From an uncultured bacterium (lineage in GTDB: Bacteria; Nitrospirota; Thermodesulfovibrionia; Thermodesulfovibrionales; CALJEL01): DNA of 34,585 nt. The translations under genes and the position numbers were made by a program. How positions within the stretch are numbered: position 1 is the first letter of the stretch; every line of letters starts with the position of its first letter. A model generated the notes under the pieces. The model worked only from the letters and a program-made list of their open reading frames with translations, was not told the origin of the DNA and ran no database searches. Location: positions 1-34,585 of the forward strand of contig CALJEL010000116.1 in assembly GCA_938074335.1 (NCBI GenBank), written 5' to 3'. Shown one piece after another: positions 11,271-34,585 of the stretch.

Positions 11271-12644
11271 ATGGCTTATTTGATACTGGTTATAGATGAT
11301 GAGGAAGGGATAAGGGAAAGCCTCAAAGGTATCCTTGAAGATGAGGGCTATGAGGTCCTTACTGCTAGTAGCGCAGAAGAGGGGATGAAGATATTTGAAG
11401 AACAATTACCTGACCTTGTGCTTCTTGATATATGGTTGCCCGGTATGGACGGGATAGAGTCTTTAAAGAGGATGCGGGACAGAAGACCTTCTATCCCTGT
11501 AATAATGATATCAGGTCATGGAACAATAGAGCTTGCAGTAAAGGCTTCAAAACTCGGTGCCTATGATTTTCTTGAAAAACCCCTTTCCCTTGAAAGGGTT
11601 CTTATAACCGTTAAAAGGGCACTGGAGGTAGCAGCTCTTGAGGGTACACTAAAGGCATTAAAAGAGGAGGCAGCAGGCCGTTTCAGGCTTGTTGGTGAAT
11701 CTGCTGCAATAAGACACCTTAAGGCACAGATAGATATTGTTGCACCTTCTTCAAGTATAGTACTCATTACAGGAGAGAGTGGTTCAGGAAAGGAACTCGT
11801 GGCAAGGCTCATTCATGAAAGGAGTCCACGGAAGGGTGGTCCTTTTATTGAGGTAAATTGTGCAGCCATACCCCGGGAGCTTATAGAAAGCGAACTCTTT
11901 GGCCATGAAAGAGGTTCCTTTACAGGTGCTCATGAGAGGAAAAAGGGGAAATTTGAGCTTGCTGACAGGGGAACACTTTTTCTTGATGAGATAGGAGATA
12001 TGTCAAAGGAGGCACAGGCAAAGGTCTTAAGAGTAATAGAGACAAAGGAATTTCAAAGAGTTGGTGGAGGGAAAAATATAAAGGTGGATGTAAGGATAAT
12101 AGCAGCAACAAATAAGGACCTTCAGGAAGAAGTTAGAAAGGGAAACTTCAGGGATGATCTCTTCTACAGGTTAAATGTGATCCCTTTGAGGGTTCCTCCT
12201 TTAAGAGAGAGAAAAGAGGATATCCCTCTTCTTGTAGAGCATTTTTTAACCCTCATAGCATCTGAATATGGCAAGCCAAAGAAGAGACTGGAAGAAAAAG
12301 CCATAAAGCTTCTTGTAGACTATAACTGGCCCGGCAATGTGAGGGAATTAAGGAATCTCGTGGAGAGGCTTTTTATTATGTCTCAGGGAGATATCATTAG
12401 ATCAGAAGATATTGAATCTTCTTTTGGTCTTCCATCCCCTGGAATTCATTCCTATTTCAAATTCAATACACTCAGGGAGGCAAGGGAGGCCTTTGAAAGA
12501 GATTTTATCCTAAAAAAACTTCAGGAGAATAACTGGAATATCTCTAAGACAGCAGAGGCAATAAGTCTTGAAAGGACAGCGCTGTATAGAAAGCTTAAAC
12601 ATTTAGGGATAACAGAGGCTGATAGTAGTGCGACAGTGCGATAG
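11271..12644 (+). CDS. NtrX-like sigma-54-dependent response regulator
   Basis: Receiver, GESGSGKE, ESELFGHERGSFTGA, Fis-like HTH; ATG preceded by gaggtggg. Confidence 0.93.
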   Translation: MAYLILVIDDEEGIRESLKGILEDEGYEVLTASSAEEGMKIFEEQLPDLVLLDIWLPGMDGIESLKRMRDRRPSIPVIMISGHGTIELAVKASKLGAYDFLEKPLSLERVLITVKRALEVAALEGTLKALKEEAAGRFRLVGESAAIRHLKAQIDIVAPSSSIVLITGESGSGKELVARLIHERSPRKGGPFIEVNCAAIPRELIESELFGHERGSFTGAHERKKGKFELADRGTLFLDEIGDMSKEAQAKVLRVIETKEFQRVGGGKNIKVDVRIIAATNKDLQEEVRKGNFRDDLFYRLNVIPLRVPPLRERKEDIPLLVEHFLTLIASEYGKPKKRLEEKAIKLLVDYNWPGNVRELRNLVERLFIMSQGDIIRSEDIESSFGLPSPGIHSYFKFNTLREAREAFERDFILKKLQENNWNISKTAEAISLERTALYRKLKHLGITEADSSATVR

Positions 12645-12697
12645 TGCGACAAACTACACAGAACCTCTCCCCGCTCTGTCGTTCTGTCGCACTATTT
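12626..12697. repeat. Octamer-array inverted repeat / bidirectional hairpin between convergent genes
   Basis: AGTGCGAC AGTGCGAT AGTGCGAC ... GTCGTTCT GTCGCACT ATTTTT; arms are complementary. Confidence 0.8.
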
Positions 12698-14206
12698 TTG
12701 AACTGTTTTAATTATTGCCTCCACCAGTGCCTCGTTTGTCGCCTTCTCAGGCATTATGGAGACCTTAAGCCCGGCGGATTCAACTACCTTTTTTGTAACA
12801 GGACCTATGACCGCTATCTTTACATCCATTAAAAATTCCTTTGCCTCCTGGCCGATCAATTCTATAAAATTATTAAAGGTAGCACCACTTGTAAAGACCA
12901 CCATGGTAATCCTTCCCTCTTTTAGAAATCTCTTTATCCTCTTTGCATGGGTCTCTGGCTTTATGGATCTATATGTAACAGGTGCATCCACATGACCTCC
13001 AAGTTCCTTTATCCTTTCAGGTATTATCTCCCTTGCAATATCTGCCCTTGGAAAGAGTATACGGATACCCTCTAAATTTCCATTATAAAGCCTTTTAAAG
13101 GCCTCCACCACACCCTCTGCCCTGAATTCTTCAGGTACAAGGTCAACCAGTATGCCATATTTTTTTAATTCTTCTTCAGTTTTTATGCCAACAGAGCATA
13201 TCTTTACGCCCTTCAGCTCCCTCACATCCAGACCTTTTTCAAGCATTCTTTCCATGAAATATCTGACACCTGAAGAAGAGGTAAAGATGATCCATTGATA
13301 TGTTTGAAGCCTTGATAAGGAGTTATCAAGGCCTGTCCAGTCTTCTGGAGGTGTAATCTCTATTGTGGGAAAATCTATTACTTCTGCTCCAAGGAGCTCT
13401 AATTTTTCATAGGCCTCTGATTCCTTTCCTGTAATAACTATCCTCTGACCAAAGAGGGGCTTTTTTTCATACCAGAGAAGGACATCCCTGAGCCTTACCA
13501 CTTCACCGATTATAAATATGGCAGGTGGATTAATTTTTTTTTCTTTTATTATCTCAGGTATGGTCCTGAGAGTCCCTGTAATCGTAATCTGATCTGCCCT
13601 TGTCCCCCATCTTATAAGTGCAGCAGGAGTGTCGGGGTCTTTGCCATTTCTGATAAGCTGTTCTGTGATGGCAGCTAAATTTCTTACTGCCATAAGAAAG
13701 ACAAGGGTACCATCAAGTTCTGCAAGGGCCTTCCAGTTTATCCTGGTTTCATGTTTTGTTATATCTTCATTCCCTGTAATTACCGTGAACAGAGAAGATA
13801 GGTCTCTGTGTGTTAATGGGATACCCGCATAGGCAGGTACCGCAATTGCAGAAGATATCCCGGGTATTATCTCAAAGGGTATACCTTCCCTTGCAAGTAC
13901 CTCAGCCTCTTCTCCTCCCCTGCCAAATACAAAGGGGTCTCCACCCTTAAGCCTGCAAACGATCTTCCCCTCCTTTGCCTTTTCAACCAGTATCCTGTTT
14001 ATCTCTTCCTGAGTCATCTCATGATGGCCACCGCGTTTACCAGCGTAAATAAACTCAGCCTCATTTTTAAGATAGTTCAGGATTTGAGCATTTATGTGAA
14101 AGTCATATACCACAACATCAGAGAGTTGAAGTGCCTTCAGACCCTTGATGGTGAGAAGACCTGTATCTCCAGGGCCAGCCCCTACGATGTAAACCTTACC
14201 TGTCAT
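12692..14206 (-). CDS. cobA-hemD: Uroporphyrinogen-III C-methyltransferase / uroporphyrinogen-III synthase fusion
   Basis: N-terminal GKVYIVGAGPGDTGLLTIKGLKAL, RLKGGDPFVFGRGGEEAE; C-terminal HemD-like domain (FTSSSGVRYF, VVFTSGATFNNF). Confidence 0.93.
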   Translation of the reverse strand: MTGKVYIVGAGPGDTGLLTIKGLKALQLSDVVVYDFHINAQILNYLKNEAEFIYAGKRGGHHEMTQEEINRILVEKAKEGKIVCRLKGGDPFVFGRGGEEAEVLAREGIPFEIIPGISSAIAVPAYAGIPLTHRDLSSLFTVITGNEDITKHETRINWKALAELDGTLVFLMAVRNLAAITEQLIRNGKDPDTPAALIRWGTRADQITITGTLRTIPEIIKEKKINPPAIFIIGEVVRLRDVLLWYEKKPLFGQRIVITGKESEAYEKLELLGAEVIDFPTIEITPPEDWTGLDNSLSRLQTYQWIIFTSSSGVRYFMERMLEKGLDVRELKGVKICSVGIKTEEELKKYGILVDLVPEEFRAEGVVEAFKRLYNGNLEGIRILFPRADIAREIIPERIKELGGHVDAPVTYRSIKPETHAKRIKRFLKEGRITMVVFTSGATFNNFIELIGQEAKEFLMDVKIAVIGPVTKKVVESAGLKVSIMPEKATNEALVEAIIKTVQK

Positions 14207-18873: not shown

Positions 18874-18891
18874 TACTCTCCAGACAAAGTA

Positions 18892-19014
18892 GTGCGACAG
18901 AGCTAAAGTAGTGAGTTAGTGAATTAGTATGCAAATGAGTTAGTGATTTAGTATTTTCTAATTCACTAATTCACTAACTCACTAATTCACTAATCACTAA
19001 TTCACTAACTCACT
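18892..19014. repeat. Octamer-array inverted repeat (AGTGAGTT/AATTCACT arms)
   Basis: AGTGCGACAGAGC, AGTGAGTT AGTGAATT ... AATTCACT AATTCACT AACTCACT AATTCACT. Confidence 0.9.
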
Positions 19015-21869: not shown

Positions 21870-21893
21870 GGTGCGACAGAGCGACAGTGCGAC
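21870..21893. repeat. Short octamer array GGTGCGAC AGAGCGAC AGTGCGAC
   Basis: Three tandem 8-nt units upstream of mqnE. Confidence 0.75.
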
Positions 21894-21910: not shown

Positions 21911-22263
21911 TGCCGATAGAAATGCATTTTCATCGGGGTTCACGGGGTGAAGCTTGTCTTCACCCCGTGCTCTAATGGCGGGGTATGCCTCAAAGCCTTT
22001 TTAGACCAGCAGAGCAGTAGTGCAGTAGAGCAGTAGTTTTTATTGATAGAGCAGTAGACCAGCAGAGCAGTAGTTTTTATTAAGGAATTTTTTTAAATTA
22101 ATATTTAACTGCTGCGCTGTTGCTCTGCTGCTCTACTGCTCTGTTATTGCCTGCTGCTCTACTGCTCTATTAAGGTGTCGCGAGCGGGGTCCCCAGAAAA
22201 TCGTCAGATTTTCTGGGGTGCTGATATTGCCTTTTTCGGCAGCCCCGACCATTCCTATCGGCA
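21911..22263. mobile_element. Copy C of MITE-like element with octamer-array core and two embedded hairpins
   Basis: Terminal TGCCGATAG (21911) / CTATCGGCA (22255-22263); internal AATGGCGGGGTATGCCTCAAAGCCTTT and TTAAGGTGTCGCGA...GCCTTTTTCGGCA match copies A and B. Confidence 0.75.
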
Positions 22264-34384: not shown

Positions 34385-34486
34385 TAGTGCGACAGTGCGA
34401 CTGTGCTACAGTGCGAAAGACTATTTGCATATCAAATTTTACCAAACCTGCGGTCGCACTGTTAACTATCGCACTATACCGTCGCA
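34385..34486. repeat. Octamer-array inverted repeat (AGTGCGAC arms)
   Basis: AGTGCGAC AGTGCGAC TGTGCTAC AGTGCGAA ... GGTCGCACT GTTAACT ATCGCACT ATACC GTCGCAA. Confidence 0.8.
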
Positions 34487-34507
34487 ATCCCTTCTAAATG
34501 AGGTCGG

Positions 34508-34574
34508 CTAAAGTAGTGAGTTAGTATGCAAGTGAGTTAGTGAGTTAGAAAATACTAATTCTCTAATTCACTGT
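34508..34574. repeat. Octamer-array inverted repeat (AGTGAGTT arms), paralogous to 18903-18972
   Basis: GCTAAAGTAGTGAGTTAGTATGCAAGTGAGTTAGTGAGTTAGAAAATACTAATTCTCTAATTCACT. Confidence 0.85.
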
Positions 34575-34585
34575 GCAAAAAACTT

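Follow-up and report, generated by a model that had tools for sequence, protein, structure and literature searches.

How does a hairpin loop come to read backwards between arms that keep their direction? The question is raised by contig CALJEL010000116.1 (assembly GCA_938074335.1), from an uncultured bacterium of the Thermodesulfovibrionales lineage CALJEL01, which we analyzed over a stretch of 34,585 nucleotides (nt; hereafter, the window). It carries two copies of a hairpin with octamer-repeat arms, and their loops are exact reverse complements of one another. A first-pass annotation of the window, made from sequence alone, had explained the pair by a hairpin loop having been inverted between its complementary arms, whether by recombination, fold-back copying, or a site-specific enzyme. 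Inversion stands as the best account of the two orientations. We consider it probable that the loop, sometimes together with one or two of the innermost octamers, was inverted several times by strand or template switching at the inverted arms, and that flipped copies then multiplied.

Both loop orientations occur in one hairpin family

The first-pass annotation knew of two copies, whereas the genome (2.22 Mb, a draft of 116 contigs, from which sequence stretches were collected around element matches) holds a family of dozens. Our catalogue, defined as the copies carrying the end of the left unit, comprises 43 copies, 40 of them with a readable loop. The 14-mer TTAGTATTTTCTAA has 25 exact copies in the genome, every one of which is the apex of a catalogued element; in the window, it lies on the + strand at 18948-18961 (copy 1) and on the - strand at 34545-34558 (copy 2). 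Since reverse complementation leaves the flanking TTAG/CTAA unchanged, only the 6-nt loop informs on orientation. Read relative to the left unit GCTAAAG...TATGCAA, that loop is TATTTT in 16 of the 25 copies and its reverse complement, AAAATA, in the other 9, with the arms otherwise colinear. The annotation had proposed that loop orientation be scored in this genome and in relatives; the genome gave this split of 16 versus 9, and the left-unit pattern was absent from the 60 relatives, one of the same genus included.

The remaining loops were GATTAT (6 copies), AATTAT (1), GATTTT (2), GATTCA (1), TTTTCTTAATTTT (4), and TTTCCTTAATTTT (2), and in 3 more copies the apex was replaced or unreadable. 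No loop intermediate between TATTTT and AAAATA was found among the readable copies; all other hexamer loops differ from AAAATA by 4-5 substitutions and thus form no graded series leading to it. The inversion reading thus withstood comparison with the whole family, in which mutational intermediates are lacking and the other loops form separate classes.

When 240 kb of sampled sequence were scanned for hairpins with reverse-complement loops and colinear flanks, this element was the sole one returned, and control scans for loops that were reversed or complemented between colinear flanks returned 0 in the same 240 kb. (A looser first version of the scan mostly caught near-perfect palindromes read on the opposite strand.) The chance that a random hexamer of this base composition equals AAAATA is P = 0.0007; it is ~0.003 when all five other hexamer loop classes are considered, and 1/64 if loops are limited to A/T. 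The same data bear on the possibility that a short-read assembler went through the hairpin loop the wrong way round. The genome is a draft of many contigs with many palindromic repeats, and several copies lie near contig ends. Against such an artifact, mismatches recur in the arms at 8-base intervals, and a k-mer of ~26 over the loop and inner octamers therefore fixes the orientation; moreover, the flipped form stands in nine separate contexts and the control transformations gave zero. We therefore regard misassembly as very improbable.

Arm mismatches mark the apparent extent of inversion

The arms are imperfectly complementary, and in their periodic mismatches the innermost left octamer usually presents G opposite a right-arm T (G...t). 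The reverse complement of this state is A...c, which is equally mismatched. Across the 41 copies tabulated, the inner octamer pair was G...t in 31, A...c in 8, A...t in 1, T...t in 1, and G...c in 0. The paired states A...t and G...c are thus nearly absent (Fisher p = 1e-7, uncorrected for kinship of the copies). A point-mutation route between the two mismatched states would have to cross these paired states, whereas inversion would need a single step.

Arm state and loop type occur in all four combinations, namely, G...t with a T-type loop (17 copies), G...t with AAAATA (8), A...c with a T-type loop (GATTAT/AATTAT; 7), and A...c with AAAATA (1). The last of these (C47:39012), read as its reverse complement, matches the common G...t TATTTT core exactly. 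In the 8 copies that pair G...t with AAAATA, the flip was accordingly limited to the loop, at most 14 bp. The GATTAT/AATTAT copies, A...c in 7 of 7, look like products of an inversion that carried one or two octamers along. Given all four combinations, breakpoints would lie inside the innermost TTAG in some copies and one to two octamers farther out in others. In most flipped copies, the inverted segment spans 6-14 bp, and its ends vary, falling in TTAG/CTAA or 1-2 octamers out. Argued from these sequences, explaining the four combinations would take three or more inversions that differed in their breakpoints, unless one combination arose by exchange between copies.

The main rival to strand switching is exchange or gene conversion between copies at different loci. 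Aligned in inverted register through their octamer arms, one copy might have had its loop replaced in reverse by that of another, with later exchange shuffling loop and arm states. Arms of at least 16 bp are common to dozens of copies, such exchange would also yield all four arm/loop combinations, and copy 2 of the window (C116:34507) and a copy on another contig (C2:1019) are alike in their left flank and right-hand nested sequence, yet differ in their loops (AAAATA versus TTTCCTTAATTTT). However, a first inversion or an inverted pairing is required anyway, and exchange leaves unexplained why just one loop type has both orientations. We hold it to be possible, if rather unlikely.

Loop orientation is mostly inherited

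Copies that are most alike outside the loop usually share its orientation: with 45 nt compared on each side, the nearest neighbor agreed at a rate of 0.82 versus 0.52 expected (p = 0.002), and with 70 nt on each side at 0.76 (p = 0.015). Thus, orientation is mostly inherited when the element is copied, and flips are occasional, which argues against a fast switch. Active flipping, which the annotation had entertained, found no support, the closest-related copies usually sharing their loop orientation. That the arms cause inversion of the loop and innermost octamers even now in living cells, often enough to be measured, seems to us doubtful; if so, the family would be a natural multicopy recorder of strand switching at bacterial hairpins, in which the mismatched octamers report the extent of each event.

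The same clustering would be expected if the AAAATA copies were a subfamily descended from a single ancient inversion and dispersed by transposition, with nothing ongoing, and three AAAATA copies do have the rare right-arm octamer AAGTCAC in common. Nevertheless, one inversion alone cannot produce A...c[AAAATA], A...c[GATTAT], and G...t[AAAATA] together. Neither the right arms alone nor the left arms alone separate the orientation groups (p = 0.12 and 0.89, respectively), and AAAATA is found with very different right arms and flanks. A single founding event is, in our view, distinctly improbable.

The one point in favor of a dedicated site-specific recombinase flipping the loop as a switch is the exactness of the inversion. 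Two recombinase sites could not undergo synapsis across so short a segment as the 6-14 bp seen in most flipped copies. Likewise, the breakpoints vary, no recombination site lies outside the arms, and orientation is inherited rather than randomized. Compared with Hin- or shufflon-type systems, the family shows no conserved recombination sites at fixed segment ends. There was also no evident relation of loop orientation to the direction of neighboring genes, although numbers were small. The genome-wide enzyme search covered Y1 transposase domains only. Such a recombinase is hardly credible as the agent, and of the three agents named in the first-pass annotation the site-specific enzyme does not fit, fold-back or strand-switch copying does, and recombination as exchange between copies is possible.

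Probable template switching and previously described loop inversions

Under the strand-switching account that we favor, the nascent strand would pair with the opposite arm during replication or repair, the loop would then be copied from the wrong strand, and the switch back would occur inside the arms. Flipped copies would multiply with the element, leaving two loop-orientation groups with arms otherwise colinear. Polymerase switching as the molecular agent, and the spread of copies after inversion, are what we infer from the patterns described above.

Comparable footprints are known. Template switching between inverted-repeat arms leaves a spacer inversion with or without arm changes, and spacer inversion in yeast coding sequences has been attributed to intermolecular template switching (PMC8604942). 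Loop inversions consistent with template switching have been inferred for rRNA stems, bacterial examples included (PMC8794818), and minute inversions of hairpin loops occur in plastid intergenic spacers, for example, trnH-psbA (PMC2903610). As in the yeast and rRNA cases, a short loop between inverted arms has here become its exact reverse complement between colinear flanks (9 versus 16 copies), with breakpoints within the complementary arms and arm bases that sometimes change too. In contrast to those cases, a single dispersed bacterial hairpin is involved, in dozens of paralogous copies, and mismatched octamers show how far each inversion reached. The arms of the yeast cases exceed 9 bp and are perfect, a property of that set rather than a strict requirement, whereas perfect pairing next to the loop extends here over 4 bp, followed in most copies by a G.T mismatch (at least 17 bp pair if G.T is allowed). 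The plastid minute inversions are likewise recurrent, in an intergenic hairpin, and known in both loop orientations. They differ in affecting single-copy orthologous loci, with arms of at least 18 bp in the cited example, whereas the copies compared here are paralogues within a single bacterial genome and pair perfectly over 4 bp beside the loop.

Several observations weigh against strand switching as described. Template switching is usually accompanied by homogenization of the arms, of which the inner octamers show almost none (1 of 41 copies paired). Both orientations occur only for the TATTTT/AAAATA loop; the 13-nt loop keeps one direction with respect to the left unit, and so does the GATTAT loop. 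A single event could have given rise to the A...c marks of the GATTAT class. In addition, the flips are read across paralogous copies of one genome. On balance, we conclude that the micro-inversion is real and recurrent on an evolutionary scale and that its mechanism is a familiar one, and we see no evidence for a new enzyme or a genetic switch.

Loop inversion at inverted repeats was thus already known from plastids and yeast genes, and bacterial rRNA examples had been inferred from phylogeny. What the family adds is a natural data set on strand switching that reshapes dispersed bacterial hairpins, in the form of 25 paralogous copies in two orientations with mismatched arms marking the boundaries. 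It also carries a warning, as loop orientation is unsafe as a subfamily marker.

The element and its window copies

The general form of the element is AGTGCGACAGA - (GCTAAAGTAGTGARTTAGTATGCAAGTGA)x1-4 - GTTAGTGAGTTAG - loop - CTAATTCACTAATTCACTAATCCCTAACTCACTTCACCGTCAGGTGTGCTGTCGCACT, with octamer-repeat arms, a variable number of octamers, and a length of ~120-150 bp. A representative element folds as DNA into a single long hairpin (-30.3 kcal/mol, z = -10), copy 1 of the window gives z = -9, and the tested element folds lie overall at z of about -8 to -10. Exact matches to the decamer GTGAGTTAGT number 141 genome-wide (58 on one strand and 83 on the other), as opposed to 1 and 2 for its backward control, and the left unit has 69 matches at up to 3 mismatches. 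None of the 43 catalogued copies lies inside the open reading frames called around them, and the surrounding genes are of mixed orientation. A pattern scan of a wider contig collection for the element gave no match. The element is a dispersed intergenic hairpin (REPIN/MITE-like) that is species-specific.

Some copies of the GCTAAAG hairpin have, in place of their apex, either a CAGTTTAAACAGTTTGAA repeat or a different hairpin (GTAGCCGCAAGCTT...), and the palindromes thus appear nested; such replaced apices lie at C16:38938, C55:1131, C45:8322, C46:3244, C47:9654, and C53:15965. A search of Rfam returned only sub-threshold matches to eukaryotic microRNA hairpins (26-42 bits versus cut-offs of 74-100) on both strands, which we judged to be chance products of the long stem.

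The quoted sequences and loops of both window copies were confirmed, although each begins one position earlier than annotated, at 18902 and 34507. Both, read on the + strand, follow one architecture, in which an asymmetric GCTAAAGTAGTGAGTTAG...TATGCAA is followed by GTGAGTTA octamers, TTAG-loop(6)-CTAA, and CTAATTCA octamers back. Copy 1 (18902-19014) has cooT (Pfam CooT) on one side and lplA, which encodes a lipoate-protein ligase, on the other; in the congeneric genome, this junction lacks the element. An outer-arm octamer, AGTGCGAC, whose family is abundant across the genome, forms its left foot (18891..18898). Its left unit, GCTAAAGTAGTGAGTTAG(TGAATTAG)TATGCAA (18902..18934), has one extra octamer and sets the orientation of the element; the inner left arm TGAGTTAGTGATTTAG (18936..18951), the TATTTT loop in the commoner orientation (18952..18957), and a right arm of CTAATTCA octamers (18958..19014) follow, the latter pairing with the left arms in the fold except for a few mismatches.

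Copy 2 consists of the left unit GCTAAAGTAGTGAGTTAGTATGCAA (34507..34531), the inner left arm GTGAGTTAGTGAGTTAG (34532..34548), the inverted AAAATA loop (34549..34554), and a shortened right arm (34555..34572), after which GTGCAAAAAACTT starts another hairpin. The copy is cut off by the end of the contig and window at 34585; the paralogue on contig C2 (1019-1180 of its stretch) contains the whole GTGCAAAAAACTT hairpin and has the same left flank, CTTCTAAATGAGGTCG, and the same right-hand GTGCAAAAAACTT as copy 2 (34573-34585).

Likeness to REP elements

Like REPINs and GTAG-tagged REP sequences (PMC3116915, PMC3733652), the element is a dispersed, intergenic, hairpin-forming doublet in many copies (43 here). 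GTAG precedes the TGAGTTAG stem in its left unit, and the genome contains REP-associated transposase-like genes. It differs in its length of 120-150 bp with a variable octamer number, and GTAG is not a clean unpaired tag, as its AG belongs to the stem and no CTAC stands at the right foot. The genome-wide search found two Y1-transposase domains akin to those of REP-associated transposases (RAYTs), both below the cut-off of that NCBIfam model itself. The free-standing Y1 gene (224 aa; C63, stretch positions 1250-2150) has CACCTCGTAGGTG / CACCTACGAGGTG hairpins of a different repeat family, rather than this element, on either side. Since the free-standing gene is flanked by another hairpin family and the tag is unclean, we did not file the element as a REP. 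The other Y1 domain (C61, about 13756-14034) is embedded in frame in a long open frame that matches BREX PglX-type methyltransferases, and is bordered by the repeated peptides NTDIPVCES and QAFLPV, which resemble translated palindromic repeats.

Other octamer hairpin families

A second, more abundant octamer hairpin family is built on AGTGCGAC, with 320 genome matches to its 16-mer (up to 2 mismatches) and 2 in the congeneric genome. It often supplies the outer arms of the GCTAAAG element, and was seen in the window at 12627-12692, 21871-21893, and 34386-34460 as well as in further sampled stretches. A third family, whose long loop is A/T-rich (TTTTTATTAAGGAATTTTTT...), is built on AGCAGTAG/AGCAGCAG and lies at 22011-22172 of the window and at many loci elsewhere (e.g., C34, C44, C60, and C77); the copies read by eye had a single loop orientation relative to their flanks.
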